From Pseudaquabacterium terrae (GTDB taxonomy: Bacteria > Pseudomonadota > Gammaproteobacteria > Burkholderiales > Burkholderiaceae_C), in contig NZ_JABRWJ010000001.1 in assembly GCF_013266755.1 (NCBI RefSeq), forward strand, positions 248,001-312,000: a stretch of DNA of 64,000 nt, read 5' to 3'. The notes under the pieces were generated by a model. The model was given only the letters and a program-made list of their open reading frames with translations, had not been told where the DNA came from and ran no database searches. Made by a program: the position numbers and the translations under genes. This document shows, in pieces, positions 8,798 to 36,499 of the stretch (within the stretch, counting starts at the first letter, position 1; the number at the start of each line of letters is the position of its first letter).

Positions 8798-9693
8798 CGA
8801 GGTTTCTCCAGAAGGGGTGGGGGAAGGGCGCGAATCCAGCGCTCGATCAGCGCCAGGCCTTCGGCATCGACTTGCGCGCTGCCGAGCGGCGGCATCTGCA
8901 CCTGCGGATCGCGCGAGGCCATGCGCAGCGCCAGCACGCTGTGCTGCGGCTGTCCCGGCGCGATCACCTGCGTCGCCGCGCTGCCGTGCGCGCGCCAGCG
9001 GCTCGCGGCGAGCACCGAGCGCAGCACCGCCGCGCGGCTGGCGACCGGATCGGCGGCCGACTGCGCCAGCGTCAGCTTGAGCGGCACGCGGTTGTCCGAG
9101 GTGTTGTGGCAGTGAGCACAGTTCGCATGCAAATAGCCGAGCGCGGCGCGTTCGGTCTCGTTGTCGGCGGCAATGCGCCGGGGTGTCAGCTGCAGCGCCG
9201 ACAGCCCGAGCACCGGCACCGGCGCGCTGCCGTGGCAGGCCAGGCAGTCGGTCCGCGACGGCACTTGATAACGCCCATTCGGTGCGTCCCGGTGGGCGAT
9301 GCTCATGCCGGCGGCCGGCGCCAGCCGGGCCTCGCTGCCCTCTGCCGTCCAGACGTAGCTGGCGAAGCGCCAGCTGCCGTCGGCCAGGCGCTCGATGAAG
9401 CGCGTCTCGACCGGGCGGCCGCCGAGCGCGAACTCCTTCCACAGCCGCGTGCCGGGCGGGAACTGCCAGGCGTCGATGTCACGTTGGTCGATCGCCGTGC
9501 CGGCCGGCAACGAGTACCAGCGCCGCTTGTCCGCAGCGTCGGACCACAGCGGGTACTGCGGCGTGAAGGCGAGGGCGCCGGCGGCGCCGAAGCCGGTGTC
9601 CTGCAGCCGCTGCGGCGGCTCAGGCAGAAGCGGCGCGGCGGCGAGCGGGCAGGCCAGCCCCATCACCACCACCGCGACGCCCAGGCGCTTCAC
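8794..9693 (-). CDS. SO2930-like dihaem c-type cytochrome, exported
   Basis: 299 aa. GTG start at 9693 gives a good signal peptide (KRLGVAVVVMGLACPLAAA). The body has the LWSDAADKRRWYSLPAGTAI and WKEFALGGRPVETRF segments of SO2930-type dihaem cytochromes, then two haem-binding motifs, CLACH and CAHCH, about 45 residues apart. GTG overlaps the E1-beta stop as GTGA, so its translation depends on the TPP enzyme gene upstream. Proteins of this family are periplasmic or surface redox proteins of uncertain function. Confidence 0.78.
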   Translation of the reverse strand: MKRLGVAVVVMGLACPLAAAPLLPEPPQRLQDTGFGAAGALAFTPQYPLWSDAADKRRWYSLPAGTAIDQRDIDAWQFPPGTRLWKEFALGGRPVETRFIERLADGSWRFASYVWTAEGSEARLAPAAGMSIAHRDAPNGRYQVPSRTDCLACHGSAPVPVLGLSALQLTPRRIAADNETERAALGYLHANCAHCHNTSDNRVPLKLTLAQSAADPVASRAAVLRSVLAASRWRAHGSAATQVIAPGQPQHSVLALRMASRDPQVQMPPLGSAQVDAEGLALIERWIRALPPPLLEKPR

Positions 9694-10661
9694 GCCAGCG
9701 CTGGCGCGCCGACCAGCCGCAACGCCGCATCGCGCACCGCATCGGCCTGCGGCACGCCGGCCTGCTCGAGCGGCCACGAGGCCGGTGCCGGCGCGTCGGG
9801 GCCGGTGATCCGCATCACCGGTGCCTTCAGCGCATCGAAGGCCTGCTCGCTGGCCAGCGCGGCGACTTCCGCGGCGACGCCGCACAGCCCGCTCGCTTCA
9901 TGCACGACGATCAGCCGCCCGGTCTTGCGCACCGAACGCAGCACGGTCGCGGTGTCCAGCGGCTTCAGCGTGCGCAGGTCGATCACTTCGGCCGAGACGC
10001 CGAGCTTGGCGAGCGCCTCGGCGGCCTGCACACAGGTGCCGACGGTCTTGGCGTACGAGACCAGCGTGACATCGTCGCCCGGCCGCACCACGGCGGCCTG
10101 CCCGAGCGGCACCACATGCTCGCCGTCGGGCACCTCGCCGGGCGCGAAGGCCAGCGCCAGGTCGGTGAAGAACAGCACCGGGTTGTCATCGCGGATCGCC
10201 GACTTCAGCAGGCCTTTGAAGTCCGCGGCGTTGCTCGGCATGACGACCTTCAGCCCCGGCGCATGCACGAACATCGCCTCGAGGTTGTGGTTGTGCTGCG
10301 CGCCGACGCCCCAGCCGGCGCCGCTCATCGCCATCACCACCAGCGGGAACTCGAACTGGCCACCGGACAGGTAGCGCAGTTTGCCGGCGCTGTTGACGAT
10401 GCCGTCCATCGCCAGCGTCAGGAAGGGCGCGAACAGCAGGTCGACGACCGGGCGCAGGCCCATCGCCGCGGCGCCGGCGGCGGTGCCGGCGATCACGCCT
10501 TCGGCCAGCGGCGTGTTGCGCACGCGCTCCGGGCCGAACTCGGCGCGCAGCGCGTGGCGCTTGGTCGCAACGCCTTCGCCGAACATCATCACGCGGTCAT
10601 CGCGCCGCATCTCCTCGGCCAGCGCCTGGTCGATCGCATCGGTGACAGTCAGGGTGCTCAT
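9690..10661 (-). CDS. 2-oxoacid/acetoin dehydrogenase-type E1 component, beta subunit
   Basis: 323-aa transketolase-like beta subunit: TVTDAIDQALAEEMRRDDRV at the start, the pyrimidine-domain region VGAQHNHNLEAMFVHAPGL, and a C-terminal transketolase domain (VTLVSYAKTVGTCVQAAEAL). With the alpha subunit it would form an alpha2beta2 thiamine-diphosphate enzyme decarboxylating a 2-oxoacid or cleaving acetoin. The ATG at 10661 has GGAG nine bases upstream; an earlier start at 10697 would overlap the alpha gene. No E2 or E3 gene is near. The cytoplasmic location contrasts with the two exported cytochromes that follow. Confidence 0.88.
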   Translation of the reverse strand: MSTLTVTDAIDQALAEEMRRDDRVMMFGEGVATKRHALRAEFGPERVRNTPLAEGVIAGTAAGAAAMGLRPVVDLLFAPFLTLAMDGIVNSAGKLRYLSGGQFEFPLVVMAMSGAGWGVGAQHNHNLEAMFVHAPGLKVVMPSNAADFKGLLKSAIRDDNPVLFFTDLALAFAPGEVPDGEHVVPLGQAAVVRPGDDVTLVSYAKTVGTCVQAAEALAKLGVSAEVIDLRTLKPLDTATVLRSVRKTGRLIVVHEASGLCGVAAEVAALASEQAFDALKAPVMRITGPDAPAPASWPLEQAGVPQADAVRDAALRLVGAPALA

Positions 10662-10683
10662 CTGTTTGATCTCCACAAGGGCT

Positions 10684-11655
10684 TCAGGCGTAGACATGCG
10701 TCGTCAGCTCGGCGACGTCGGGATAGGGCGAGGCTTGCGCGAAGACGAGCGCGGCTTCCAGCGTCGCCAGCACGCGCTGCTCCATCGCGGCGACTTCGCC
10801 CGGCGCCAGCACGTGCTCGGCGATCAACCGCTCGGCCAGGCGCTTGATCGGCTCGGCGTGACGCGCCGCCTGCAGCTCGGCGGGGTCGACGTAGGCCTGG
10901 TCGTCGGGCTCGTAGTGGCCGCGCAAGCGGTACGTGTTGAGCTCGAGGAAGTACGGGCGACCGGTGGCGCGGATCGTCTCGGCCGCCAGGCTCGCCGCGG
11001 CGAACACCGCATCGGCATCGTTGCCGTCGACGCTCACCGCGCGCATCTGGTGCGATGCCGCCCATTCGCGGATCGGATTGCCCGGCATCGTCTCGCGGCG
11101 GTGCACATAGGCCTGCCATTCGTTGTTCTCGCAGACGAAGAGCAGCGGCAGCTGCCAGGTCGCGGCCAGGTTCAGCGACTCGTGGAAGATGCCTTCGCAG
11201 GCCGCGCCGTCGCCGAAGAAGACGGTGGTCAGGCCGGGCCGCCCGCGCATCTTCTGCGCCAGCGCAACGCCCGGCGCCAGCGACAGCTCGCCGCCGACGA
11301 TGGTCGAGGTCAGCACCACGCCGAGCTCCTTCGCGCTGACGTGCAGCGAGCCGCTCTTGCCGCGGCAGTAACCGTCGGCGCGGCCGAGGATCTCGGCCAG
11401 CAGCCGCCCCGGATCGGCGCCGCGCGCCAGCAGGTGGGCCACGCTGCGGTGGTTGCTGAGGATCAGGTCGTCGGCCTGCAGCGCGCGGATCGCGCCGACG
11501 GCGGCGGCTTCCTGGCCGACGCTGGTGCAGGTGCCGGGCGCGCGGCCTTCGGCCTGCAGCGCGGCGACGTTTTCCTCGAAGGCGCGGATCAGCATCATCG
11601 ACTCGAGCATCGAGATGCGGTGGATCGGATCGGGTGTCACGGGAGTCCTCGTCAT
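10684..11655 (-). CDS. 2-oxoacid/acetoin dehydrogenase-type E1 component, alpha subunit
   Basis: 323 aa. Thiamine-diphosphate binding motif GDG at 148-150 with NN about 27 residues later (FVCENNEW), and the upstream SLHVSAKELGVV and HRSVAHLLARG signatures of PdhA/AcoA-type subunits. It is 22 bp upstream of the beta gene. Length and lack of E2 favour an acetoin-dehydrogenase or branched-chain-like E1 rather than the AceE-type pyruvate dehydrogenase; substrate not determinable. Start at ATG 11655; a GTG at 11640 preceded by GAGGA is an alternative. First gene of a four-gene operon. Confidence 0.88.
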   Translation of the reverse strand: MTRTPVTPDPIHRISMLESMMLIRAFEENVAALQAEGRAPGTCTSVGQEAAAVGAIRALQADDLILSNHRSVAHLLARGADPGRLLAEILGRADGYCRGKSGSLHVSAKELGVVLTSTIVGGELSLAPGVALAQKMRGRPGLTTVFFGDGAACEGIFHESLNLAATWQLPLLFVCENNEWQAYVHRRETMPGNPIREWAASHQMRAVSVDGNDADAVFAAASLAAETIRATGRPYFLELNTYRLRGHYEPDDQAYVDPAELQAARHAEPIKRLAERLIAEHVLAPGEVAAMEQRVLATLEAALVFAQASPYPDVAELTTHVYA

Positions 11656-11696
11656 GCGGGAGTGGGCATGACGTCACTCTAGGAATCCGGGCTCGG

Positions 11697-11710
11697 CGGC
11701 GCATGCGCCG
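11697..11710. promoter_or_regulatory. 14-bp perfect palindrome upstream of the E1 operon
   Basis: CGGCGCATGCGCCG lies 42 bases before the E1-alpha ATG in the 200-bp gap to the next gene. Position and symmetry fit an operator for the four-gene operon, but GC-rich palindromes arise readily in this genome. No clear -10/-35 pair is visible. Confidence 0.3.
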
Positions 11711-11855
11711 AAGGAGCCACCGCGCCGCGCCGCGGTGGGCCATGGCGGGTCGTCAAACGTGTGCGCGGCGGATCTTGGCTATGCGTTGAAGCGCATATTC
11801 ACAGGGCCTTCCATCCGAAACAGGCGTTCATTCGCATATCCAGGGGCCCAGCGGG

Positions 11856-17425: not shown

Positions 17426-19936
17426 TCAGCGCGTCGCGGTGGCCCAGTGCGGCGGCCATTCGCAGAACACCGAGCGATCGGTGCGGCCCGATTGCTGCAG
17501 GCGCTGCAGCATCGCCTCGACCGAGGGCCGCAGCCGTTCGCCGTGGCGCACCGTCGCGTTGAGCGCCGAGCGGCACAGCCGCTCGGTGTTCGGCGCCACC
17601 GCCAGCGCGACGAACCAGGCCTGGCGCGCGTCACGCTCGCGGCCCGACAGCGCACTGGCGACCGCCAGCGTGGTCCAGTCGTCGATGCGGCCGTACGGGT
17701 GGCGCGGCTGCGGCGTCGTCAGCGCATGCAGCGCGAGCTGGCGCGCCAGCTCGGGCTGCGCGGGCGGCGTGCGCAGGCGCAGCGCGGCGAGGTCGCCGGC
17801 GATCTCGGCGTCGAGCGGATTGGCGGCGAAGGCGCGGCTCATCAGCTCGAGCACCGCTTGCGGATCGCCGCGGCGGCGGAACGCCGCATCGGCGGCCTCG
17901 TTCAATTCGCGCGCCTGCTGCACCGAGACCACCGTCAGCGCTTCGGCCGGGGCGAGGCGGATCGCGCTCGCGGCATGGCGGATGCCGTCGTCGTCCTGCG
18001 GGCCCTCGGCGCGGCCGGCGGCGAACAGCACGCGCAGCACCAGGCGCTCGGCGCGTTCGGCGATGCGCGGCAGCTCGCGGCTGAGCAGCGCCTGCGCGCG
18101 GGCCTGCAGGTCGACCGCCGCCGGGGTGGGCGGCGCGGCCAGCGGCGCGGGCAGCGGTGCCGGTGCGGGGGCCGGGGCAGGCGCCGGTGCGGGGACCGGT
18201 GCCGGGTTGGCAACGGGCGCTGGCGCGGCGACTGCCACCGCCACCGGCGCGGGGATCGGTGGTGGCAAGGTCGGCGGCGGACGCGTCGACGCCGGCGCGG
18301 GCCGTGCTTCGAGCCACGGCACGGCGCGCCGATCGGGGGCGGTGCGGGCGGCGACGGTCGGCACCACGACGGGCTTCGGTGCCGCCGCGACCGGCGTTCT
18401 CACCCGCGTCGATGCGACGTTAGGAGCGCGCGGTGCCGGCCGGCGCGCCGCGCTGCGCGGCGATTCACGCGCCGGCGTGGCCTGAGCCACCGCAGGCGCC
18501 GGGGCGGGCGTTGCGGCGGTCGCGCGGGCCGGCGCCGAGGCCACCTCGGCCGGCGCCGACGCCGCCGCCTCGGCGACGACGGGCGCTGCCGGCGCGGCGA
18601 CGTCCGCCGCATCCGCCACTGCGACGGCGGCCGACGCCGCCGCCATGGGGGGCGTCGCGACGGGCGCCGCAACCGGGGTCGGTGCCGCGGCCGGCGCCGC
18701 AGACGCCGGCGTTGCCGCGGCGAGCACCGGCGCACTCGCCACCGACTGCGGCAGCGCGACGTTCGCCGGCGCGGCCGGCGGCGCCAGTGCCCACCACGCC
18801 TCGCCGGCCAGCGGCACGCCGACGGCGACGGCCGCAGCGCCGATGCCGGCGCGCCACCACCAGCGCCGCGACGGCGCGTCGGCCGGCGGCGCCATCACTG
18901 CGGCGGCGGTCGACGCGCTGATCGGCGCCGCGCCAAGCGGCAGGGCGATGCGGGTGATCGGCGTTGGCGAATCGTCGCGGACCGTCGCCGTGTCGCTGGC
19001 CAGCACCCAGCCGCGCCGCAGCGAAATGGCCAGCGGCGCTTCCTCGAGCACCCGCGACGCCACAGCCACGAGCTCGAGGTGCGGCCGCCGCGGCGTCGCG
19101 TCCGCGGCATGGATCTCGTGCAGCCGGCGCAGGAAGGCGCGCGCCTGCGCCAGCCGCTGCACGTTCCAGTCGGCGTCCAGCGGCGCGAGCTGGCCGGGCA
19201 GATAACGTTCCAGCAGCGCGGCCAGGCTGTAGAGGTCGCAGCGCCAGTCGAGCCGCCGCGTCGGACCCAGCTCGCCACGGCGCGCGGCGTCCAGCGCCGC
19301 CAGCAGCCGCGGCGACTGGTAGTCGTAGTCGGGCTGCCGCGCCAGCGGCAGCGCGGTCGCCAGCGGGTCGCCGCAGACCAGCGAGAACGCGAAGTCGATC
19401 AGCGCCAGCTGCTCGAAGCGCGGTTTCAGCATCTGGCCGGGGCGCAGTGGATCGAAGTCCACCGGCGCGACCGGAATGCACACGTTGTCGGGCTTCAGGT
19501 CCAGGTGCACCAGCCGCAGCTCGTGCACCGTGTCGAGCGCTGCCAGCAGCTGGCGCGCCAGCGCCCACCAGTGTGCGCAGTCGGCAAAGACATGCGGCAG
19601 CACCCCGTCCTCGCGCTGCACCGGCAGCAGCGTCGCCCAGTGGTCGACGGTGACGCCGGCATCGAAGGTCTGCACGATCGCCGGCTCGCCCGGCGCGCCG
19701 CGGTCGAAGCGCACCACCTCGGCGACGCAGCCGATGCCGTGGCCGACCAGCCGCGCCAGGATGCGCCACTCGCGCTCGGTCCAGATCCGGAAGTCACCGG
19801 CATCGGTGGCCAGGAATCGCTTGGTGTAGCGGCGGCGCTCGCCCGGCCGGGCTTCCTCGCGGAAGACCTCGACATGGCGGCCGGTGACCATGCGCAGGCG
19901 GCTGCGGCCGAACACGCGGTCGAGATCAGAGCTCAC
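17426..19936 (-). CDS. Transmembrane Hanks-type Ser/Thr protein kinase
   Basis: 836 aa. Kinase domain at about 15-300: candidate ATP-contacting Lys39 (RRYTKRFL), Glu54 or Glu56 in the C-helix, catalytic loop HLDLKPDN (144-151, Asp146) and metal-binding Asp181 in LIDFAFS. The glycine loop is degenerate and DFG reads DFA. A single membrane helix at about 359-383 is followed by a proline/alanine-rich stretch to about 620 and a helical, TPR-like C-terminal domain that should lie in the periplasm. GTG start at 19936 with AGGGGG just upstream. Last gene of the SEDS-PBP-FHA-PP2C operon; it presumably phosphorylates cell-wall or FHA partners. Confidence 0.85.
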   Translation of the reverse strand: MSSDLDRVFGRSRLRMVTGRHVEVFREEARPGERRRYTKRFLATDAGDFRIWTEREWRILARLVGHGIGCVAEVVRFDRGAPGEPAIVQTFDAGVTVDHWATLLPVQREDGVLPHVFADCAHWWALARQLLAALDTVHELRLVHLDLKPDNVCIPVAPVDFDPLRPGQMLKPRFEQLALIDFAFSLVCGDPLATALPLARQPDYDYQSPRLLAALDAARRGELGPTRRLDWRCDLYSLAALLERYLPGQLAPLDADWNVQRLAQARAFLRRLHEIHAADATPRRPHLELVAVASRVLEEAPLAISLRRGWVLASDTATVRDDSPTPITRIALPLGAAPISASTAAAVMAPPADAPSRRWWWRAGIGAAAVAVGVPLAGEAWWALAPPAAPANVALPQSVASAPVLAAATPASAAPAAAPTPVAAPVATPPMAAASAAVAVADAADVAAPAAPVVAEAAASAPAEVASAPARATAATPAPAPAVAQATPARESPRSAARRPAPRAPNVASTRVRTPVAAAPKPVVVPTVAARTAPDRRAVPWLEARPAPASTRPPPTLPPPIPAPVAVAVAAPAPVANPAPVPAPAPAPAPAPAPLPAPLAAPPTPAAVDLQARAQALLSRELPRIAERAERLVLRVLFAAGRAEGPQDDDGIRHAASAIRLAPAEALTVVSVQQARELNEAADAAFRRRGDPQAVLELMSRAFAANPLDAEIAGDLAALRLRTPPAQPELARQLALHALTTPQPRHPYGRIDDWTTLAVASALSGRERDARQAWFVALAVAPNTERLCRSALNATVRHGERLRPSVEAMLQRLQQSGRTDRSVFCEWPPHWATATR

Positions 19937-19943
19937 GATGCCC

Positions 19944-19985
19944 CCTTTGGCGCGCTGCGCCTTCCCCGCGCGGGGGAGAAATCCG
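19944..19985. repeat. Palindromic element directly upstream of the kinase start
   Basis: Two adjacent hairpins: GGCGC-GCT-GCGCC (19949-19961) and the palindrome CCCCGCGCGGGG (19964-19975). They occupy much of the 73-bp gap between the phosphatase stop and the kinase GTG and abut the ribosome-binding site. They could lower or tune kinase translation relative to the upstream genes. Confidence 0.5.
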
Positions 19986-20009
19986 CTTGCCGGCGGCCGA
20001 GCGGCGGCT

Positions 20010-20849
20010 TCACTTCTTCGCTCCTCGCCGCGACCACGGCAGCGCAAAGCCGCCATGGCGCAGCAGCAGCACGGTCGCGTCGTCGGCGCTGCCGTTGCTG
20101 CGCGCCAGCGCGACCAGCGCGTCGCAGCGCTGCGCCAGGCTGCCGCCCGCCGTGCCGAGCACGCGGCCGAGCGCGAGCGCTTCGACGTGCTTGTGCACGC
20201 CGTCGCTGCACAACATCAGCAGCTCGCCTTGCGCGAGCTCGCAGGGCACGACGTTGGCGCCCAGCGTCGCGCCATTGCCGACCATGCGCGCCGGATCGTC
20301 GGGCGAGCTGCCGGGCGGTGGCGTCTCGTTGAGGTGGCGGAAGCTGTCGTCCTGCGTCAGCAGGCTCGCGCTGCCGCCGCCGGCGCCGATGCGGTAGGCG
20401 CGGCAATCGCCGACCCACCCGACCAGCCAGCGCGAGGCCAGCAGGTTCGCCGGTGCCGCGAGCACCAGCGTCGCGGCGCCCGGCGCGTCGGCGCGGCGCT
20501 CGATGTAGCGCTTGATCGCGCGGTCGGCGTCCAGCACCGCCTGGCGGATGCGCTGCGCATCGATGCGCTGCACATCGAGGCTTCGATGCAGCCGCGCCAC
20601 CAGCTGCCGGCTCGCGGTGCGCGCGAGCGCCCCGCCGCCGACGCCGTCGGCAACGACGAAGAGCCGGCCGGCGCGCTCGGGCGTGCTGTGCGCGTCTTCG
20701 TTGAGCGCATGCGCGCTGCCGCAGGTGCTGGCAGCGGCAAATTCGATGCGTGCCCAGGCCGCGCTGTGGGCCAGCGCTTCGTCGCTGCCGGCGACGGCAT
20801 CGGGCCGCAGCGGCGGCGGCTCCAGCGGCGTGATCGGTGTGCAGGGCAT
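20010..20849 (-). CDS. PP2C-family Ser/Thr protein phosphatase
   Basis: 279-aa soluble phosphatase with the PPM metal motifs in order: NED (50-52), VADGVGGG (66-73), GDCRAY (147-152), SDG (215-217) and DDAT (256-259). It should reverse phosphorylation by the kinase encoded next. It lies 15 bp downstream of the FHA gene. Unlike mycobacterial PstP it has no membrane helix. Assignment is firm; the physical substrate is inferred from gene order. Confidence 0.9.
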   Translation of the reverse strand: MPCTPITPLEPPPLRPDAVAGSDEALAHSAAWARIEFAAASTCGSAHALNEDAHSTPERAGRLFVVADGVGGGALARTASRQLVARLHRSLDVQRIDAQRIRQAVLDADRAIKRYIERRADAPGAATLVLAAPANLLASRWLVGWVGDCRAYRIGAGGGSASLLTQDDSFRHLNETPPPGSSPDDPARMVGNGATLGANVVPCELAQGELLMLCSDGVHKHVEALALGRVLGTAGGSLAQRCDALVALARSNGSADDATVLLLRHGGFALPWSRRGAKK

Positions 20850-20864
20850 GGTCGGCTTTCGGTG

Positions 20865-22403
20865 TCAGTCGCGCGCGCTGCGCCGCAGCTGCAGCACACA
20901 GCCCACGTCGGCCGGCGCGACGGCGCCGAGCACCAGCGTCTCGCCGATGCGCCAGCGCACGCGCGTGCCGGCGTCGTGGCGCACGCCGTCGAGCAGCACG
21001 CCGTTGTCGCCGTGCACCTGCAGCAGCACGCCGTCGTCCTGCGCGTCGAGCGCGATCACGTCGAGGTGGTGGCCGGAAACGCCGTCGTGCCGACGGTCGA
21101 CCACCAGCGACTGGTTGCGCGAGCGGCCGACGCTCACCGGCAGTGCCTCGGCGCGCAGCGCCAGCACGACCGTCGCGCCCGAGGGCGTGGTCATCGCGAT
21201 GCTGAACGCCGCGGCCGGTGGCGCGACGCCGTGGATCGCCGTCAGCGGCGTGCGCGGCACGCGCTGCGGCATTCTTTGCGGCACCTCGGCGATCGGCGTG
21301 ATCGGCGGCGCTGCGGCGGCGGCGCGCAGCGCCAGGCGCGGATAGTCGGCGGCCGGCCCGTCACCGCGCGCCGACAGCACCAGCCGCGCGCCGTCGGCCA
21401 GGCGCAGCGGCGGCGCGCCGTCGCCGGTCGCCGGGGCGTCGCGCCGGCCCTCGATGCGCACGCCGTTGGTCGAGCCGGCATCGCCGACCCACCAGCTGCC
21501 GTCGTCGATCCACAGCTCGGCATGGCGGCGGCTGGTGTAGGTGCCGCGCAGCACGATGTCGCAGCCCTCGCCCTTGCCGATCACGTAGCGGCGCCCGGGC
21601 ACGACGGTGGGCAGCACGACGCGGCGCCGGCCGTCGGCATCCTCGACGTCGAACTCGCAGCGCTGGCCGGCCAGCGGCGTCAGCGGCGCCGACGACACCA
21701 CGGCGGGGCGCTGCACCGGCGCCGCGGTCGCGGCCGGCGCCGTGTCGACCTCGCTCCAGCGGCCGATCAGCTCGACCTCGTAGGCCGGCGCCAGCCCCGG
21801 CGGCCGCGGATCGGCCAGCGTCGCGAGCAGGTCGGCGTAGTCCTCGGCGGCGCCGGGCGCGCCGGCGGCCTCGGCCGCGCCACCGCGCGCATCGGCCAGC
21901 CCGGCGAACTGCGACAGGTCGATCGCTGCCGCGTTCGGCAGCCCGGCGATCACTTCACGCGCCAGATAACGCTTGACCTGCTCGGGCTTGAACTCGCGCA
22001 TGAACTGCTGCAGCCGCTCGCGCGCCGCGTCGTCGTCGCCGCTGCAGTGCACCGCGATCGAGGTCAGCACGAAGCGGTCGCGGTCGGCGATCGCCAGGTG
22101 CAGCCGCAGCTGGCTGACGATGAAGTGCTCGAGCTCGGCGCGCACCGCGCCGATCAGCGGCGCATAGGCGCCCAGGTGCGCGGCCGCCGCCAGCGTCGGC
22201 TCGATCGCGCGGCGCTCGGCGGCCGGGCCGGGCGCGGCATGGCCCGGCGACTCGCTTTCGCCGAACGCCGCGAGCGAGGGCTCGAACGCGGTGTCGCGCG
22301 GCGGCAGGTCGACGCGCGACAGCAGTCCCTTCAGCCGCTGCGCCCGGCGCACGCGGTGGATAACCCATGATTTGAGCGACATCGCGGTCTTCCTCGAGTT
22401 CAT
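20865..22403 (-). CDS. Protein with two FHA phosphothreonine-binding domains
   Basis: 512 aa, soluble. Residues 1-165 are helical and of no family I know (MSLKSWVIHRVRRAQRLKGL, and LRLHLAIADRDRFVLTSIAV). FHA1 is at about 270-345 with GKGEGCDI, SRRH and STNG; FHA2 at about 420-495 with GRSRNQ, SGHH and DNGVLLDG. It would read phosphothreonines made by the kinase and assemble the complex. The two-FHA form with an N-terminal adaptor recalls FhaA, but homology of the N-terminal part is not evident. ATG at 22403 overlaps the upstream stop (ATGA); a second ATG lies at 22382. Confidence 0.87.
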   Translation of the reverse strand: MNSRKTAMSLKSWVIHRVRRAQRLKGLLSRVDLPPRDTAFEPSLAAFGESESPGHAAPGPAAERRAIEPTLAAAAHLGAYAPLIGAVRAELEHFIVSQLRLHLAIADRDRFVLTSIAVHCSGDDDAARERLQQFMREFKPEQVKRYLAREVIAGLPNAAAIDLSQFAGLADARGGAAEAAGAPGAAEDYADLLATLADPRPPGLAPAYEVELIGRWSEVDTAPAATAAPVQRPAVVSSAPLTPLAGQRCEFDVEDADGRRRVVLPTVVPGRRYVIGKGEGCDIVLRGTYTSRRHAELWIDDGSWWVGDAGSTNGVRIEGRRDAPATGDGAPPLRLADGARLVLSARGDGPAADYPRLALRAAAAAPPITPIAEVPQRMPQRVPRTPLTAIHGVAPPAAAFSIAMTTPSGATVVLALRAEALPVSVGRSRNQSLVVDRRHDGVSGHHLDVIALDAQDDGVLLQVHGDNGVLLDGVRHDAGTRVRWRIGETLVLGAVAPADVGCVLQLRRSARD

Positions 22404-22729
22404 TTGCGGTAGGCGATCACCAGCGTGGCGAGCGGTCCGGCGGCGCGCAGCCGGCGCAGCCGCGGCGCGCTGGGCAGGCCGTAGCCGGCCAGGCGGGCGA
22501 CGAAGCGGCCCCAGGCCGGCTGCAGCGCATCGCCGGCGTCGACGCGGCGCTTCAGCGCCGGCAGCGACAGGTCGATCTGCAGCGCGATGCGCGAGACATC
22601 GCCGATGCCGACGATCGCGCGCCGCAGCGTGTCCTCGAGGTCGGCCAGGCAGCGCTCGAACGGGCCGTCGAAGGTCCAGACCAGCGGCATCGGCAGCGCC
22701 GCGGCGGGCTTCATCGGGGCGCTCTTCAT
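22400..22729 (-). CDS. Unknown 109-aa protein in the kinase/cell-wall operon
   Basis: Start and stop both overlap neighbours by four bases (ATGA on each side), so it is almost certainly translated with them. The sequence has FDGPFERCLADLEDTLRRAI, then DVSRIALQIDLSLPALKRRV, and ends GPLATLVIAYRK. There is no signal peptide or membrane helix, and I recognise no domain. Its place between the transpeptidase and the FHA protein suggests an adaptor, but that is inference only. Confidence 0.8.
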   Translation of the reverse strand: MKSAPMKPAAALPMPLVWTFDGPFERCLADLEDTLRRAIVGIGDVSRIALQIDLSLPALKRRVDAGDALQPAWGRFVARLAGYGLPSAPRLRRLRAAGPLATLVIAYRK

Positions 22730-25383
22730 GGCGCGGCTGCGGCAATGGCGCCGACCTGCCGGCCGGCGATCTGCAGCGCGATCTCGGCCGCCGGGTTCGG
22801 CCCGCGGTCGCCGGCGCCGTGCACCTGGCCGCTGGCGCGATGCCAGTTGCGCTCGGTCAGCACGGCGATCGCCTTGGTCCACGGGCCGGTGGGCTCGCTG
22901 CGCCAGGCGGCGACGTACCACTTGTAGGGCCGCAGCGAGCTGCAGGCGGCGGCCGGCTTGTCCTTGTCCTTGGCCAGCTTCTTCGCCGCGGCGGGGTCGC
23001 GGCACAGCAGCGCCAGCTCGTCCAGCGTCAGGCCGTCGCTCGGAAAGCTCGGCGTGCCGGTCTTGCCGGCCAGCCACTCGATGCCGCGGCAGCGCTTGGC
23101 GTCGAACACCTGCTCGCAGGCGCTGCGGGCGGTGCCTTCGCGGTGGCTGTGCGCGAGGCCGCTCAGGATGATTTCGGCCGCTTCCCGCGTGATGCCGACC
23201 GGCCGCGGCTCGGCCAGGCCCCAGCGCGTGACCGCGGCGTTGAGCGGCGTGCCGCCGACGCCGTGCAGGCGCTCGACCAGGTAGGGCCGGCGCAGCGCCG
23301 GCTGGCCGTTCGCCGCCGCGGCCAGCGTACTCATCATGCCGGCGACACCCAGCGCGCTGGCGCGCGCATGGCCCTGGCCCCAGCCCTCGGCAACGACATC
23401 GACCACCGCGCCGCCGCGGCATTTCTCCCAGTCGTCGTCGCTGCCGCGCGCACCGTCGGCGCCGGCCGCGCAGCGCCGCAGGATGCCGGCGTCGAGCGCC
23501 GCCGGCGGCCGCAGCCGCATCGGCGCACCGAGCTTCGCGCCCTGCGGCTCGCTCATCAGCCGGCCGTAGGCGATCGGCGTCGCCAGCGGTTGCACCAGGC
23601 CGGCCTCGGCGGTGGCATCGATCGCGCGGCCGAACAGCAGGTCGTGGCGGCCGCAGGGATCGCCGGCGCCGGCCGCGATCGCTTCGGCGCAGCCGGCGTT
23701 CCAGCCGAAACGCTGCGCCGCGGCCTGCACCTCCCACGGGCGGCGGCACGGCTGCTCGCCGCCGTCGATGCACATCATGCGGTCGAGAAAACGGGCCGAG
23801 TCCGAGCGCATCAGCTCGCCGCGCAGGCTGTGGCGCGCCGGTGCACCGGGGCGTTGCATCGCGCTGCGCTCGGCGGCCAGCAGGCGCGCGCCGGCGCCTG
23901 CGTCGGCGAGGAAGGACGCGGCCATGATGGGCTTGATCGTCGAGGCCGGCATCGCGTCGTGGTAGACGGCCGGGTTCAGCAGCGCATCGGGCCGGTAGCG
24001 CACGGGATAGGGCAGGCGCTTGTCGCAGTGCGCCTCGCGCCCGGGGCCGTCGACCTCCTGGCGCGCGCACGGCGACAGCCCGCCGGCCAGCGCCTCGATG
24101 CGGCCGGAGGCGACATCGATCACCGCGACTGCCGCCATGCGCACCATCGCGCCTTCGAGCAGCTTGTGGCCGGGCGGCCGCGCGCCGTCCTCGGCGCGCT
24201 GGATGCCGAGCGCGCGGCAGATGTCGTGGCTGCCGCTGTAGCAGGCGGCGGTCTTCTGCGCCAGCGCCTGCAGCGCCGGGTCGATCGTCAGCTGCAGCGA
24301 GAAGCCGACGTCGATCGGCGCGCCGTCGAGCACGATGCGGTTCGCGCCGTAGCGGTAGCCCGACGGATCGTCGGCCGGCGTCGCCTCGCCTTCGGTGTAC
24401 AGCCGGTACAGCGCGCGCGAAGGCTGGCGCAGCGCTTCGAGCGGCGCGAGCATCGTCATCAGCGACGGCGGCACGCTCCAGCGCGCATCGTCGGCGGCCA
24501 GCGGTCCCACCGGCTCGCCGGGCAGGGTGATCGGGGGCGGGAGCGGCGACGGGAGCGAAGGCACGGACGCCGCGGCCATCGCCGGCAGCGTGCACAGCCG
24601 CGCCTGCGCGGCGCCGGCCGCGAGCACATGGCTGGGGGCGGCCGGATCGCCGTCGCGCTGGCCGAGGTAGATGCAGCCGGCGATGCCGTTCCACGGATTG
24701 CGGCGCATCACATGGCGCGCGGTGATCTCGACCTGCTGCTGCGGCGCCCAGCGCGCCAGCGCCGCCTGCGGCACCGTGCCGCGCCAGGCCAGCGCATCGA
24801 GCATGCGCGCATCGGCCCGCGCCAGCGCGGCGAGCGCGCGCGCCAGGTCGGCGCAGCCGAGGCGGAAGCGCTGGCCCGGGTACTGCGGCGCTTCGAGCGT
24901 CGCTGCCAGCGCGGCCCCGGCCGCATCGAACCAGCGTGTCGCGTCCAGGCCTAGCTTGTTTTCGACGCGGCCGTTGGGGCGCGTGCTGAAGCGCAGCAGC
25001 GCGGCATCGACGCTCGCGAGCTGCGCGCCGACCTGCGTCGCATCCCAATCGCGCGCACACGCGGGCAACGCCTGCAGCACGGCATCGGCGCCGGCGGCCG
25101 GCGCTGCAAAGCCGGCTGCATCGCGGCGCACGATCGCCTGCTCGAAGGTCTTCAGCGCCGCGACATGGCGCACGCTGACGTAGCGGTCGCCGTGCTGCTC
25201 GTCGGCCGGTCGGATCACGGCGACCAGCAGCAGCACGCCCAGCAGCACCGGCAGCACCGCGAGGCTCGCGGCGATGGCCAGGTCGAGGAGAGAGTCGACC
25301 CCTACAGCCCTGCGGGCTGGTCCCCCAAGGGGATCAGTCCGACCGGGAGACCCGGATCGGACTGGGCGTCTGCTCTCAACCAT
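22726..25383 (-). CDS. Penicillin-binding transpeptidase (class B-like), divergent
   Basis: 885 aa. Short cytoplasmic tail, one membrane helix at about 34-57, a large periplasmic region with several cysteines, then a transpeptidase domain: SxxK as STIK (481-484), SDS near 527 in the SxN position, and KTGT (774-777), with GWGQGHARASALGVAGMMST between as in PBP2/PBP3 proteins. It is probably the D,D-transpeptidase partner of the SEDS protein encoded just upstream. GGAGG lies six bases before ATG 25383; a GTG directly before it is possible. It overlaps the SEDS stop by 8 bp. Residues about 7-26 are encoded by a palindromic repeat. Confidence 0.87.
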   Translation of the reverse strand: MVESRRPVRSGSPGRTDPLGGPARRAVGVDSLLDLAIAASLAVLPVLLGVLLLVAVIRPADEQHGDRYVSVRHVAALKTFEQAIVRRDAAGFAAPAAGADAVLQALPACARDWDATQVGAQLASVDAALLRFSTRPNGRVENKLGLDATRWFDAAGAALAATLEAPQYPGQRFRLGCADLARALAALARADARMLDALAWRGTVPQAALARWAPQQQVEITARHVMRRNPWNGIAGCIYLGQRDGDPAAPSHVLAAGAAQARLCTLPAMAAASVPSLPSPLPPPITLPGEPVGPLAADDARWSVPPSLMTMLAPLEALRQPSRALYRLYTEGEATPADDPSGYRYGANRIVLDGAPIDVGFSLQLTIDPALQALAQKTAACYSGSHDICRALGIQRAEDGARPPGHKLLEGAMVRMAAVAVIDVASGRIEALAGGLSPCARQEVDGPGREAHCDKRLPYPVRYRPDALLNPAVYHDAMPASTIKPIMAASFLADAGAGARLLAAERSAMQRPGAPARHSLRGELMRSDSARFLDRMMCIDGGEQPCRRPWEVQAAAQRFGWNAGCAEAIAAGAGDPCGRHDLLFGRAIDATAEAGLVQPLATPIAYGRLMSEPQGAKLGAPMRLRPPAALDAGILRRCAAGADGARGSDDDWEKCRGGAVVDVVAEGWGQGHARASALGVAGMMSTLAAAANGQPALRRPYLVERLHGVGGTPLNAAVTRWGLAEPRPVGITREAAEIILSGLAHSHREGTARSACEQVFDAKRCRGIEWLAGKTGTPSFPSDGLTLDELALLCRDPAAAKKLAKDKDKPAAACSSLRPYKWYVAAWRSEPTGPWTKAIAVLTERNWHRASGQVHGAGDRGPNPAAEIALQIAGRQVGAIAAAAP
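25306..25363. repeat. Triple-hairpin palindromic element inside the PBP reading frame
   Basis: Three consecutive stems: AGCCC-TGC-GGGCT (25306-25318), TCCCC-CAA-GGGGA (25321-25333), and the nested stem AGTCCG-A-CCGGG-AGA-CCCGG-AT-CGGACT (25336-25363). Such runs normally sit between genes. Here they are translated in frame as residues about 7-26 of the transpeptidase cytoplasmic tail, just before its membrane helix. Confidence 0.75.
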
Positions 25384-27715
25384 CACGCGCCTCCGGCGGC
25401 AGGTCGACGGTCAGCGCCAGCGCGAGGAAGCCGAGGTTGACCAGCAGCGAGCTCATGCCGTAGCTGACGAAGGGGAAGGTGACGCCGGTCAGCGGCAGCA
25501 CGGCGAGGTTTCCGGCAACGGTGACTGCGAGCTGGCACAGACTCAGCACGACCCAGCCGACGGCCAGCCAGCTCAGCAGCGCCTGGCCGTCGTGCGCGAA
25601 ACGGCCGTTGCCCAGCGCGATGAGCCGCGGCTCGCCGCGCGTGACGCGGCCATGGCGGCGGATCAGCCGGTGCAGCCACAGGGCGGTGCCGAGCGTTGCG
25701 CCCCAGGCGGCCGCGGCGCCGAAGACGCCGACGATGGCGGTGAAGGTGTAGTCGCTGTGGATCTGCGCGGGCACGCCGCTGCATTGCGCCGCCGGCGCAT
25801 GGCCGCACCACGGCACCGCGCCGAGCCCGTAGCCCTGCGGCGGTGCGGCGCGCTGGAACCACGACACCAGCGCCAGCTGGTCGTTGGTCGAAGCCAGCGG
25901 CGCGGCCAGGCTCTCGAGCCGCGCGGCGGTCACTGCATCGACCTGGCCGGCCTGGAACAGCGCCGCGGTGATGGCGACGATCCAGCCGACGAACAGCAGC
26001 AGCGCCAGCGCCACCGCACCCGCGCTGCCGCCGCCGCGCAGCTGCCACCACATCGCGAAGGCCGCGCCGACGAAGGCGCCCGAGGCGTAGGCGGCGATCA
26101 GCAGCGGGCCCATGTCGCGCGTGATCACCATCGCGCCGACCAGCATGCCGACGACAAAGAAGAGTGGCCATGCATAACGCCAGAGCGACACGTCCATGGC
26201 GTCGCCGGCGGCCAGCCGGCGGGTGAGCGGCCCGGCGCGCAGCAGGAAGAACCAGGCCGCGCCGACGATCAGCCAGATGCGGCCGAGCTCGGAGGTCAGC
26301 TGGCGCAGGTTCTTCAGCAGCAGGCCGAAGACCAGCAGCGCCACGGCCGCGCCAAGCAGCAGCACGAGGGCCGCCAGCAGCGGCGGCAGCCAGGCCGCGC
26401 TGCGGCGTCGCCACGCGCCGGCCAGCGCCAGCGCACGGCCGAGCGCACGCGCCAGCGGCCGGCGGCCGAAGCCCAGCAGCGAGAACACCAGCATGCCAAG
26501 CCACAGGTGCCCCTGGTGGTACAGCGCCAGGTAGCGGTTCAGCGCGTGGCCATGCGCCGACAGCTCCAGCAGCAGCAACCAGCCGAGGCCGGTGGCCAGC
26601 GCCAGGCCGGCGAAACCGGCGCGTGAGCTCAGCGTCGCCGTGGGTGCGGCAGCGGCTGGGCGGCGCACCAGCGCGGCGCCGATCAGCAGCAGTCCGGCGA
26701 GCGCGAACGCGATGACGAAGGGGGCCGGCGCGCTGGTCCATGCGGCCTCGGCGCGCCCGGGCTCGAAGGCCCGCGCACCGGCCAGCGGCCACGGCACGCG
26801 CGCGGCCCACGCGGCGAGGCTCCACAGTCCCAACGCCACGCCGGCGCCCAGCAGCGCCGAGCGCGCGCGCCGGCTCCACAGCAGCATGGCGTAGCTCAGC
26901 AGCAGCGCCGCGCCCCACTGCGAGCCGGCTGAGCGGAACAAGGCGCGCGTCGCTTCATTCTTGCGCGCGCGAACCAGCGACTGGCGCGCGTCGGCCATCA
27001 GCGTCGCCGTGGCGGCGAGTGCGGCTGCACCGTCGGCGGCGCAGCCGCTGACCGCCGGCGCAGCGAGCGGCGCCGCCGCGCTGGGCAGCGTGCGGCCATC
27101 GAGCGCTGCGGCCAGCAGCAGCAACGCGTCGGCGCGTGCGGCGTCGTCGCCGTCTGCCAGCGCTGCGCGGGTCCATTGCAGCGCGCATTGCAAGGGGCGC
27201 GGCGCGCCGGCGTCGCCGCCCTGCAGCTGGTAGCGATCGAGGTAGGGCTGCATGTCGGCCTCGATCGCGGCGATCGCGTCGGCCGACGCGCGCACCGCGC
27301 CGACACCCTCGTGCTGGCGCAGCCGCAGTGCGTCGAGCCGCGCCTGCGCATCCGCCACCGGGGCACCGAACGCGCGCGCCGCGCGCGCGACGGCCTGCTG
27401 CAGCTCGGGCGGCAGCGCGGTGGGCACCGTGCCGCCCGCGGCGCCGCGCGTGCCGCACAGCGCATCGCGCAAGGTGGACCGCATCGTCACGGCGGCACAC
27501 ACCGACGGCAGCACCGGCGCGGGCAGGCCTTCGACCTCGATCCCGCGTGGCGCATAGCGCGCGCCGCGGCCTTCGCCGAAATCGGCCACCCGCTCGAAGG
27601 CCGGCCACAGCAGCACCAGCACCGCCAGCAGCGCCAGCGCTTCGGTCGCCGGCGCCAGCGCACGCGCCCACCGCCCGGGGCGCGCCGGCGCGGCGCTGGC
27701 CAGGGCGATGGTCAT
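25376..27715 (-). CDS. SEDS-family glycosyltransferase (FtsW/RodA/SpoVE) with an extra N-terminal region
   Basis: 779 aa, about twice the usual 370-420. The C-terminal half is a SEDS protein: RDMGPLLIAAYASG, the HSDYTFTAIVGVFG loop whose Asp (about 655) aligns with the catalytic Asp of RodA/FtsW, and TGVTFPFVSYGMSSLLVNLG (743-762). The first 265 residues hold one membrane helix (about 25-40) and a roughly 220-residue extracytoplasmic helical domain with five cysteines that I cannot place. Expected role: polymerising lipid II with the PBP encoded next. ATG at 27715 shares a base with the upstream stop (TGATG). Confidence 0.88.
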   Translation of the reverse strand: MTIALASAAPARPGRWARALAPATEALALLAVLVLLWPAFERVADFGEGRGARYAPRGIEVEGLPAPVLPSVCAAVTMRSTLRDALCGTRGAAGGTVPTALPPELQQAVARAARAFGAPVADAQARLDALRLRQHEGVGAVRASADAIAAIEADMQPYLDRYQLQGGDAGAPRPLQCALQWTRAALADGDDAARADALLLLAAALDGRTLPSAAAPLAAPAVSGCAADGAAALAATATLMADARQSLVRARKNEATRALFRSAGSQWGAALLLSYAMLLWSRRARSALLGAGVALGLWSLAAWAARVPWPLAGARAFEPGRAEAAWTSAPAPFVIAFALAGLLLIGAALVRRPAAAAPTATLSSRAGFAGLALATGLGWLLLLELSAHGHALNRYLALYHQGHLWLGMLVFSLLGFGRRPLARALGRALALAGAWRRRSAAWLPPLLAALVLLLGAAVALLVFGLLLKNLRQLTSELGRIWLIVGAAWFFLLRAGPLTRRLAAGDAMDVSLWRYAWPLFFVVGMLVGAMVITRDMGPLLIAAYASGAFVGAAFAMWWQLRGGGSAGAVALALLLFVGWIVAITAALFQAGQVDAVTAARLESLAAPLASTNDQLALVSWFQRAAPPQGYGLGAVPWCGHAPAAQCSGVPAQIHSDYTFTAIVGVFGAAAAWGATLGTALWLHRLIRRHGRVTRGEPRLIALGNGRFAHDGQALLSWLAVGWVVLSLCQLAVTVAGNLAVLPLTGVTFPFVSYGMSSLLVNLGFLALALTVDLPPEARDG

Positions 27716-28521
27716 CACGGTGCCCGGCGCGAAGAGGAGGGCTCGGCGAGGCGCTCGGAGCGCGCACCGCCCAGGTTCGCGCCGAGCACGATGGTGTCGC
27801 CGACCTTGAATGGCGGCGTGTGTTCGTAGCTGCGGATCAGCCGGTCGCCGCCGGGCAGCCGCAACACCACCTCGTGACTCGTGCGCGCAACGGGCCGCCC
27901 GACGGCATGGTCGACCGATTGGGTGATGCGCGCGAGATGGCGATCGACCGGGCCGCCGATGCGCTCGCCGAACAGGCTGGTGAGCAGGCCACCGGACGGT
28001 GGCTCGGGTTCGACCTGGCGGATCGATTCGACGAGCGCGCAGTCGTCGCACAGGCGCGCCCGCGGCGGCGCCACCGCGGGCGGCAACATCCGGGGCGCGG
28101 GCGGTGGCGGGGGTGCGACTTCACGCGGCGGCAAGCTGGCGACCGGCGCGGGCTCGTCGCCCAGCACCAGGCGCTCGGCGAGCGTCGCCTGCACCTCGCG
28201 TTCCCCGAGCTGCAGCATCGCGGTGACGCGGGCATCCGGTGTGATGCGGTCGTGCTCGTCGATCCAGTAGCGGCCGTCGTAGACGCCGGGCTGCACTTCA
28301 CGCAATTCCAGGCTGCGCTGCGCACCCTCGATCCACAGCACGGCGCGGCCGCCGGGTGTGCCGAACAGGCTGAAGGTGAGGCCGACGCCGGGCGCCAGCG
28401 CATCGACGCGCTCGACATCCAGCGTTTCGATGCGCAGCGTGGCCGCCCTGACCGCGACACTGAAGCACAAGACCAGCAGCGCCGACGACAGGCCCACGAC
28501 GAACCGGCGCACGAACGACAT
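27715..28521 (-). CDS. Exported protein with a SlyB/glycine-zipper-like C-terminal domain
   Basis: 268 aa. Signal peptide (about 1-26), a beta-rich N-terminal domain (LRIETLDVERVDALAPGVGL), a proline-rich linker, then CDDCALVESIRQVE and a final domain TSHEVVLRLPGGDRLIRSYE / PPFKVGDTIVLGANL. The CxxC-VESIRxVE plus VGDxVxV pattern is that of the SlyB/Pcp-type surface proteins, here without the glycine zipper. First gene of the kinase/cell-wall operon. Periplasmic location is expected; function unknown. Confidence 0.72.
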   Translation of the reverse strand: MSFVRRFVVGLSSALLVLCFSVAVRAATLRIETLDVERVDALAPGVGLTFSLFGTPGGRAVLWIEGAQRSLELREVQPGVYDGRYWIDEHDRITPDARVTAMLQLGEREVQATLAERLVLGDEPAPVASLPPREVAPPPPPAPRMLPPAVAPPRARLCDDCALVESIRQVEPEPPSGGLLTSLFGERIGGPVDRHLARITQSVDHAVGRPVARTSHEVVLRLPGGDRLIRSYEHTPPFKVGDTIVLGANLGGARSERLAEPSSSRRAP

Positions 28522-28691: not shown

Positions 28692-29540
28692 TCACCGCAG
28701 CGGTGCCGAGCGGCCGGGCCAGTAGCTGCCGGCATAACCCCGGTACGGATTGCCGTAGACCGCTCGGCCGGCGTGGCGGTGCTCGTCCATGAAGGCAATC
28801 ACCGCGGCCGGCGTACCGCCCTTGAACATCTCCTTCAGGATGCCCTCGGGTAACAGCTCGCGGTAGCGCACGGGCAGCCCGGCATAGGCCGCGCCTTCGG
28901 CCAGGTCGAGCGGCAATTCGGTCGGATCGAAGAAGCGCGCTTCGCCGAATTCGCTGTCGTGATGCGCGCGCACGCGCTTGGCGGCATCGAGGATGCCTTC
29001 GATCACGTCGGACAGCGCGCGGCCGCTCATCAGGGCCCGCCATGACGCGCGCAGGAACAGCAGCTCGTCGGGATCGACGCCCGGGCATTCACCCTGGTAG
29101 GCGGCGGTCAGGCAGTGGTCGCTGGCGGCGAGCAGGCGCTGCGTGGCGGTCGGCTCGCGCTCCAGCAGCTCGAGCACCTGACCGAGCGACGAACCGCGCA
29201 GGTAGTGCTCGGGCATCAGCTCGTAACCCGCGTCGCCGGGATGGTGATGATCGACCCGCGCGATCGGCTCGTGGCCCTGCAAGCGGCATTCGACGAACAC
29301 TGCCGGCGTCTTCGGCGCCAGCACCGCCGGCCGCGGCACCCGGTCCGGCCCGACCCGCACCACCGCGTCGGCCTCGTAGGCCGTGCGCGGGCTGCAGCGC
29401 CGGCGGCCCTTGGCCGCATGCACCCAGGGGTGGCCGGCATCGTCGACGATGCGCTCGATCTCGCGCATCTCGGGGTCCTGGGCGCCCAGCACGAAGGTGC
29501 TGTTGGGGTCGAGCACGAAGCTTGTGTGGGGGTCGCTCAC
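28692..29540 (-). CDS. Conserved-looking protein of unknown function with an HHHPGD motif
   Basis: 282 aa, soluble, no signal or membrane helix. Notable elements are ARVDHHHPGDAGYELMPE (about 93-110), HPWVHAAKGRRRCS near the start, and GNPYRGYAGSYWPGRSAP at the end. The clustered histidines and aspartates suggest metal binding and faintly recall DHH phosphoesterases, but the rest of that fold is not seen. It precedes the kinase operon on the same strand with a 170-bp gap that should hold that operon's promoter; I see no convincing -10/-35 there. Confidence 0.6.
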   Translation of the reverse strand: MSDPHTSFVLDPNSTFVLGAQDPEMREIERIVDDAGHPWVHAAKGRRRCSPRTAYEADAVVRVGPDRVPRPAVLAPKTPAVFVECRLQGHEPIARVDHHHPGDAGYELMPEHYLRGSSLGQVLELLEREPTATQRLLAASDHCLTAAYQGECPGVDPDELLFLRASWRALMSGRALSDVIEGILDAAKRVRAHHDSEFGEARFFDPTELPLDLAEGAAYAGLPVRYRELLPEGILKEMFKGGTPAAVIAFMDEHRHAGRAVYGNPYRGYAGSYWPGRSAPLR

Positions 29541-35861: not shown

Positions 35862-36419
35862 TCACAGGCCGAACAGAACGAGCACGCCGAATCCCGCAAA
35901 CAGCGCGGCGGCGACATAGCGCATCGCGCCGAGCGGGACGCGATGTGCCAGGCGCTCGCCCAGCAGCACGGCAGGAACATTGGCCACCATCATGCCCAAG
36001 GTCGTGCCCAGGACGACCGCGCCCAGGCTCGGATATTGCGCGCCGAGCGCGATCGTCGCGAACTGTGTCTTGTCACCGATCTCGGCGATGAAGAACGCCA
36101 CCGCCGAGGTCACGAACGGGCCGTGGCGGCTGCCCGAGGGCTGCACGCCGGGCTTGTCCGGAATCAGCGCCCAGCCGGCAAACGCGAGGAACGCGCTGGC
36201 GAGGACCCAGCGCATGACTTGCGGTCCAACGTGCGCGGCGACCCCATCGCCGAGCCATGCGGCCATGGCGTGATTGGCCAGCGTGGCCACCAGGATGCCG
36301 AGGATCAGCGCCGCCTGCCGGCCCTTGAACCGGGCGGCGAGCATGAACGAGAGCAATTGGGTCTTGTCGCCGATCTCGGCAAGCGCGACGAGGCTGAACG
36401 AAGCAAGCAGAGCTTCCAC
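35862..36419 (-). CDS. GDT1/UPF0016-family Mn2+ (Ca2+) exporter
   Basis: 185-aa inner-membrane protein with six helices in two repeats, each carrying the cation-binding motif EIGDKTQ (LAEIGDKTQLLSFML and IAEIGDKTQFATIAL). Bacterial members (MneA-type) export manganese. GTG start at 36419 gives the canonical MEALLASF start. A yybP-ykoY manganese riboswitch precedes it, which strongly supports the substrate. Monocistronic. Confidence 0.92.
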   Translation of the reverse strand: MEALLASFSLVALAEIGDKTQLLSFMLAARFKGRQAALILGILVATLANHAMAAWLGDGVAAHVGPQVMRWVLASAFLAFAGWALIPDKPGVQPSGSRHGPFVTSAVAFFIAEIGDKTQFATIALGAQYPSLGAVVLGTTLGMMVANVPAVLLGERLAHRVPLGAMRYVAAALFAGFGVLVLFGL

Positions 36420-36499
36420 GAGGTGTGTCCGATGGGGCCGGCGAGCTGAGAACCGATGACCTCGCCGCCCAACGCCAGCCCCCGCTGGTGGACAACGAA

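Follow-up and report, generated by a model that had tools for sequence, protein, structure and literature searches.

A putative accessory peptidoglycan synthase operon with its own phospho-switch in Burkholderiales

A cassette of seven genes in Pseudaquabacterium terrae (Burkholderiales) probably encodes a third peptidoglycan synthase, accessory and horizontally exchanged, that would work under its own phospho-switch. The cassette lies in a 64,000-nucleotide stretch of the genome (contig NZ_JABRWJ010000001.1, positions 248,001 to 312,000; henceforth the window), in an assembly of 8.04 Mb in 56 contigs that is 99.6% complete. Seven intact, collinear frames run on the minus strand, as does every window feature given below, from 28521 down to 17426. 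They encode, in this order, an exported protein (EXP), a SEDS family protein (SEDS), a class B type penicillin-binding protein (PBP), a conserved protein of 109 residues (X109), a protein with two FHA domains (FHA), a PP2C-type Ser/Thr phosphatase (PP2C), and a Hanks-like kinase (KIN). Third-position GC content is 0.88-0.95 across all seven genes. The junctions from EXP to KIN measure -1, -8, -4, -4, +15, and +73 bp, so that the four overlaps (1, 8, 4, and 4 bp) listed in the initial annotation of this DNA are exact. That annotation also named these seven genes and described them as a wall-synthase and Ser/Thr phospho-signalling operon. This description is borne out in a Burkholderiales genome, with all frames intact and domain calls that are right, though mostly weak. 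SEDS, PBP, and the kinase give only faint matches with Pfam and NCBIfam, which indicates that all three are far from the usual copies. We found no match to a sigma-70 promoter between 17000 and 29000.

A divergent SEDS protein and its class B partner

SEDS (25376..27715; 779 residues) is a divergent member of its family. Pfam PF01098 recognises its last 58 residues with the last part of the model only (33.5 bits against a cut-off of 26.4, E=3e-8), and the FtsW and RodA equivalog models remain below their cut-offs (36.3 bits against 337.5, and 25 against 336.7). Aligned with hhalign, it matches a profile of housekeeping SEDS proteins at 97.9% (E 4.9e-13); in profile-profile alignments it matches FtsW at 98.1% and RodA at 72.6%. 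A search of solved-structure profiles also returned FtsW and RodA entries, via the last helices only. The profile alignment lays a Ser-Asp-Tyr of SEDS on the Thr-Asp-Phe of FtsW, and gives Asp655 (25751..25753) as the counterpart of Asp262 in Escherichia coli RodA and of Asp297 in FtsW. This putative catalytic residue, in the fourth extracellular loop, is kept in 14/14 rows. An engineered RodA-PBP2 fusion is itself active, and D262A blocks its polymerisation (PMC6207328). Hydropathy and the helices of the structure model further predict a helical periplasmic domain at about residues 45-260 (26936..27583).

The initial annotation had proposed to compare the cassette protein with FtsW and RodA in a phylogenetic tree. 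Our SEDS tree has 43 rows, including 12 cassette proteins (taken from residue 401 on) and three actinobacterial rows; L021, L023, and L040 were omitted for the cassette, and L058, L059, L071, L005, L060, and L070 for the housekeeping genes, the latter as partial or duplicate sequences. The cassette rows form a clade of their own (100/100), outside FtsW and RodA, on a branch of 5.43 whose length leaves the exact placement unsure.

It had also been considered that these genes might simply be the housekeeping copies. Two ordinary SEDS genes are present elsewhere in the genome; they score 331.5 and 322.1 bits against 36.2 for the cassette SEDS. By best E. coli match, they are one FtsW and one RodA, the latter adjoining a PBP2 gene. 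Eight transpeptidase matches were found genome-wide, and the cassette PBP is not among them. Matches of the FtsW and RodA types, some in pieces, are present besides the cassette in 13 of the 15 carriers queried. The remaining two are metagenome-assembled genomes (MAGs), one with an FtsW-type match (G1171) and one with a weak fragment only (G1170). The separate FtsW and RodA genes rule out that the cassette provides the housekeeping enzymes of this genome.

PBP (22726..25383; 885 residues) has one N-terminal transmembrane segment (26-62). Pfam places it below cut-off (E=0.011, 15.3 of 22.1 bits), and its alignment with the class B profile reaches 93.1% (E 3.1e-7). The active-site residues of S481-x-x-K484 (23932..23943) are both invariant in 13 sequences, including two remote variants (described below). 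K774-T-G (23056..23064) is kept in the 11 close members, out of 11, that reach the motif, and reads KTG in one variant (G966) and KSG in the other (G888). When the structure model is searched with Foldseek, all of the best 50 of 374 matches are penicillin-binding or transpeptidase proteins; the search of solved-structure profiles gave no match at E 0.01. That the SEDS Asp and the PBP motifs SxxK and K[TS]G persist even where PBP identity is as low as 30% favours an active synthase.

The initial label, class B-like PBP, was thus right but understated, because this relative carries 18 invariant cysteines. The cassette shares with RodA-PBP2 and FtsW-FtsI the pairing of a SEDS protein with a class B PBP and the conserved catalytic residues. 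It differs from them by its own long-branch clade, its extra ectodomains, 18 + 6 invariant cysteines, and its link to Hanks signalling, and in one variant the two proteins are fused. The 18 cysteines of PBP are invariant in 11/11 sequences and all lie beyond the transmembrane segment. Housekeeping class B rows contain 0-2 cysteines in all (n=17; most are truncated to roughly 470 residues, and one gene is represented twice). SEDS has six (12/12), of which four are in the N-terminal ectodomain (Cys73, Cys87, Cys177, and Cys225) and two in the loop that precedes the catalytic Asp, against 0-5 cysteines in all in housekeeping SEDS rows (n=31). EXP keeps Cys158 and Cys161 as a C-x-x-C (8/8), and the kinase C-terminus keeps two (7/7). 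Since the cysteines of the outer parts are even in number and suitably placed, they suggest disulfides. Conserved cysteines are not confined to these parts, as they also occur in the kinase domain (three places), FHA (one), and PP2C (two).

Signalling and accessory proteins

FHA (20865..22403; 512 residues) has a conserved N-terminal region and two FHA domains, recognised by Pfam in two stretches (E=7e-19). The residues at what we take to be the phosphopeptide site are kept in both domains. Solved-structure profiles point to GarA-like FHA domains, and the best NCBIfam match is the actinobacterial FhaB (55.5 against a cut-off of 125). PP2C (20010..20849; 279 residues) matches Pfam PP2C_2 (45 bits against 24, E=1e-11) and, below cut-off, NCBIfam Stp1 (E 7.6e-24). 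The Asp residues that presumably form its metal site are invariant in 10/10 sequences.

KIN (17426..19936; 836 residues, GTG start) consists of a Hanks-like kinase domain, a Pro/Ala-rich linker, and a C-terminal domain. The Pfam kinase model remains below cut-off (E=5e-4, 19.9 of 31.7 bits), and the search of solved-structure profiles gave borderline matches only, to the catalytic loop. The Lys, the Glu, and HLDxKxDN are kept. We found no PASTA repeat with Pfam or NCBIfam; the PASTA-kinase model aligns with residues 126-154 only, in the kinase core (17 of 450 bits). In one MAG (L024, 17611-18225), the kinase frame stops early while the similarity continues; either the copy has decayed or the sequence contains an error.

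The genome G897 encodes a vWA, PP2C, and kinase triad (L096, G897:C5:40500-57500, 7573-11763), all over their Pfam cut-offs. Its kinase gene, with a Pkinase domain over cut-off, adjoins the PP2C and vWA genes and is matched by the C-terminal domain of KIN (E 7.5e-15). This common domain suggests that domains were exchanged between the cassette and the vWA-PP2C-kinase triad.

Thr-Pro motifs recur at fixed places in the three signalling proteins. KIN has a juxtamembrane TPITRIA (residues 325-331; 18944..18964) that follows the pattern TP[IVM]TR[IL]A in all nine members examined. PP2C has an N-terminal TPITP (20826..20840), with TP at this place in 10/11 members. In FHA, a span with T242P, T369P, and T385P (21240..21680) keeps these in 12, 11, and 10 of 12 members. 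The motif TP[ILVM] is more frequent than in shuffled sequences in FHA (37 against 4.4, standard deviation 2.0), PP2C (11 against 2.2), and KIN (20 against 6.8), in counts that omit the kinases cut by contig ends or early stops, those of L016, L020, and L024 among these. It is at shuffle level in SEDS (6 against 5.8) and EXP (2 against 2.4). The recurrent places likely mark a phospho-switch, and those in the kinase linker would fit autophosphorylation and docking. StkP, a PASTA kinase, likewise has juxtamembrane Thr sites, and phosphorylation of its juxtamembrane domain helps recruit division proteins (PMC12077195).

Two proteins accompany the synthase and the signalling genes. X109 (22400..22729) has no hydrophobic segment and is found in 12/12 loci that span the gap between PBP and FHA, including the window; it matches no family of Pfam, NCBIfam, or PADLOC. 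EXP (27715..28521; 268 residues) is outside the cassette core; it is present in 8 of 14 relative loci, absent in four that have upstream sequence, and undecidable in two. The window EXP matches no Pfam family. Rick_17kDa_Anti is over cut-off in the EXP proteins of L015, L016, and L017 (all three scanned), and EXP relatives have a glycine-zipper 2TM domain of the kind seen in outer-membrane lipoproteins.

Distribution, mobility, and remote variants

We searched with the SEDS protein through a collection of 84,980 species, each represented by one genome, a scan that reaches close relatives only. It gave 13 relatives, all assigned by their titles to Betaproteobacteria or Burkholderiales: Aquabacterium, Caldimonas, Schlegelella, Rhizobacter, and MAGs. 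The order SEDS-PBP-FHA-PP2C-KIN is kept in nine of them, which argues for linkage beyond chance; the contigs of the other four (3.5-8.4 kb) break off within the block. The block is also present in one further genome (L040). Carriers are few, a handful of bacteria from soil and water: the SEDS profile matches 10/399 genomes of the GTDB family (E 1e-30), and the PBP profile matches 2/21 genomes of the genus (2/12 among the more complete ones). In wider samples the sole match is the genome itself, be it at order level with E 1e-30 (1/399), phylum-wide with the PBP profile at E 1e-10 (1/398), or at order level when a broader PBP profile is used (E 1e-8, 1/210). All 10 SEDS-positive genomes of the 399-genome family sample are also positive for the kinase profile, together with two more that are weak and partial, which argues that the cassette genes travel together.

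The genes around the cassette differ between carriers. We compared the flanks in ten stretches from eight other loci, using a simple gene caller and blastp at E 1e-15. The only shared neighbour with high identity is a 282-aa gene adjoining EXP (28692-29540), which is 87% identical in Aquabacterium humicola and is recognised by neither Pfam nor NCBIfam. The remaining flank matches have 26-32% identity and mostly involve common families. Trees of the cassette genes (SEDS, PBP, and FHA) and of housekeeping genes (FtsW, RodA, and PBP2) were then compared across 12 genomes, leaving out the SEDS of L023; some housekeeping rows are partial and the columns of L017 are 36% filled. Caldimonas groups with three deep Betaproteobacteria MAGs at 100/100 in the former and with the other eight genomes at 100/100 in the latter. 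This disagreement points to horizontal transfer of the cassette. A tblastn search of 72,556 plasmid records gave no match for SEDS or PBP at E 1e-5, and none at 1e-10 for the fused protein described next. Taken together, the sequences compared here indicate that the cassette is a conserved accessory, portable unit.

A search with the kinase reached a remote variant, in G966, in which SEDS and PBP form a single frame of 1302 residues. It is followed by genes for a protein of 115 residues, a protein with a weak FHA match (15.7 of 20.7 bits), a PP2C, and a kinase-like protein with a sulfatase-modifying-factor-like domain. Searching with the fused protein gave matches in 4/150 genomes: G966 itself, two known carriers, and G888. 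The search indicated an open frame of 1245 in G888; on reading, the SEDS frame hits a stop before the PBP gene. This variant thus has separate SEDS and PBP genes, then a 100-codon frame in the place of X109, an FHA-like gene, a PP2C, and a kinase. The cassette models of SEDS, PBP, PP2C, and KIN match proteins of both variants, whose PBPs are 30% and 32% identical to that of the window. Those of X109, FHA, and EXP give no match to the variants' proteins, and X109 and FHA were paired there by gene position and by visual inspection of motifs. The variant contigs also carry mobile-element genes: ParA, ParB, and a DDE transposase in G966, and two integrases and a Tn3-type transposase in G888. A natural SEDS-PBP fusion argues that the two proteins work as one complex, although it is a single case and may be an assembly error. 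Among the literature matches listed, the only SEDS-PBP fusion is an engineered one (PMC6207328).

Downstream of the fused cassette, a gene run (L094, G966:C33, 11238-16453) opens with a gene that weakly resembles Hsp70 (14.4 of 20.6 bits); the further genes scanned in this run gave no match over cut-off. The cassette of G888 is directly followed by a gene for a protein of 856 residues with 13 Sel1 repeats (L106, G888:C26, 14984-17554).

Elsewhere in the window, a manganese riboswitch (yybP-ykoY, 36434-36614, 67.3 bits) lies just upstream of a gene (35862-36419) for a GDT1-type divalent cation antiporter (143.4 bits), a fitting partner for it.

Comparison with known systems and interpretation

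Several known systems resemble parts of the cassette. The threonine phosphorylation pathway of type VI secretion systems, PpkA-PppA-Fha, has the kinase, PP2C, and FHA set in common with it. However, the TagH model gives 42.3 bits here, against a cut-off of 120.25, and the seven genes match no structural family of these systems in Pfam or NCBIfam. Triads of the TerY-P type (vWA, PP2C, and kinase) have a related kinase C-terminal domain, as seen in G897, whereas the cassette lacks a vWA protein and has SEDS, PBP, and FHA. The PASTA kinases PknB, StkP, and IreK share the tie between kinase and wall synthesis; KIN differs from them by the missing PASTA repeat, the Pro/Ala-rich linker, and a different C-terminal domain. 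The initial annotation knew of no described equivalent, and we likewise found no publication on such a locus in Proteobacteria among the literature matches listed, in which subscription journals are thinly covered. The words FtsW, RodA, and penicillin are absent from the main text of a paper on NTP-dependent conflict systems (PMC7159879).

We propose the following model. SEDS would polymerise lipid II and the class B type PBP would cross-link the product, the two forming a putative 1:1 complex that many disulfide bonds outside the inner membrane may stabilise. KIN would span the membrane, sense the envelope through its C-terminal domain, and phosphorylate itself, FHA, and PP2C at candidate Thr-Pro sites, those of KIN being in its juxtamembrane linker. 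Together with X109, FHA would read these marks and couple KIN to the synthase, so as to activate or position the latter, and PP2C would reset the switch. In the loci that have it, EXP may provide a connection to the outer membrane. By analogy, the system would most likely serve to build or repair the wall when the envelope is under stress and the housekeeping RodA and FtsW machines are insufficient, a suggestion to which we give much less credence than to the general model.

Several observations weigh against this model, beyond the reliance of the proposed use on analogy. The structure model of SEDS is weak (pLDDT 65.7), without any Foldseek match at E 0.001 or to a solved SEDS fold, and that of PBP is poor (pLDDT 48.8), with 2/374 matches reaching E 0.001. 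The SxN motif of PBP is S-[DN]-S in close members, which is neither SxN nor SxD; in the remote variants it reads S-Q-T and S-L-T, if aligned correctly. KIN has DFA in place of DFG, no clear glycine loop, and, in the window copy, a weak transmembrane segment (best hydropathy 1.55, with a range of 1.49-2.26 among members). The excess of TP[ILVM] extends beyond the signalling proteins to PBP (15 against 5.9, with a shuffle maximum of 15). The odd SxN, together with the branch of 5.43 and a PBP below its Pfam cut-off, would also be expected if SEDS and PBP had lost enzyme function and acted as receptors, signalling to the kinase on binding wall fragments or precursors. We regard this as improbable, because the SEDS Asp and the PBP SxxK and K[TS]G are kept down to 30% PBP identity.

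A role in defence or conflict, with wall synthesis activated to counter lysis by phages or rivals, would agree with the patchy distribution, the differing flanks, the mobile-element genes near both remote variants, and the kinase C-terminal domain common to the vWA-PP2C-kinase triad. It is scarcely more probable than inactive receptors, since PADLOC matches are in the kinase only, partial and of at most 28.7 bits (X109 and two variant proteins gave none), and none of the seven genes resembles a toxin, nuclease, or NTPase in Pfam or NCBIfam. A developmental synthase dedicated to a special wall, for example in cysts or resting cells, has a precedent in SpoVE-SpoVD, and disulfide-rich parts would suit a harsh exterior. 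It too seems unlikely, if slightly less so than defence: with matches in 2/21 genomes of the genus (2/12 of the more complete ones), no genus-wide trait depends on the cassette. Least probable by far, and already disfavoured, is the transfer of the actinobacterial pstP-rodA-pbpA-pknB locus. The initial annotation saw the cassette as mirroring this locus, whose order we take to be fhaA-fhaB-pstP-rodA-pbpA-pknA-pknB. The likeness holds for the gene content (SEDS, class B PBP, FHA, PP2C, and membrane kinase), and FhaB is the best NCBIfam match of FHA, albeit below cut-off. It does not hold for the gene order, for SEDS, which is nearer FtsW than RodA (98.1% against 72.6%), or for the kinase, in which no PASTA repeat was found. 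Moreover, EXP and X109 are extra, SEDS and PBP are very divergent and cysteine-rich, and the cassette is accessory rather than group-wide. In Actinobacteria, rodA, pbpA, pstP, pknA, pknB, fhaA, and fhaB lie in one seven-gene cluster (PMC6554272). Because the cassette has another gene order and other families, we take it to be convergent with that locus, their descent being compared for SEDS alone, with three actinobacterial rows.

The preferred reading, an accessory synthase under its own phospho-switch, has a bolder extension, which we hold tentatively and with slightly more doubt than belief. The cassette may represent a third class of SEDS and class B PBP pairs, besides the elongation and division types, with about a dozen disulfides, moving as a unit among Burkholderiales, controlled by a Hanks kinase, PP2C, and FHA set independently of Actinobacteria, and forming a single-chain polymerase-transpeptidase in one lineage. 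Wall synthases are usually viewed as core machinery with few fixed partners. If our reading is true, a bacterium can gain wall synthesis as an accessory trait, through a portable synthase with its own phospho-switch, and the cassette would allow the gating of SEDS and class B PBP complexes by kinases to be studied in Proteobacteria. The natural fusion of G966 would be useful for biochemistry and structure, and the conserved Thr-Pro sites are candidate phosphorylation sites that are directly testable.

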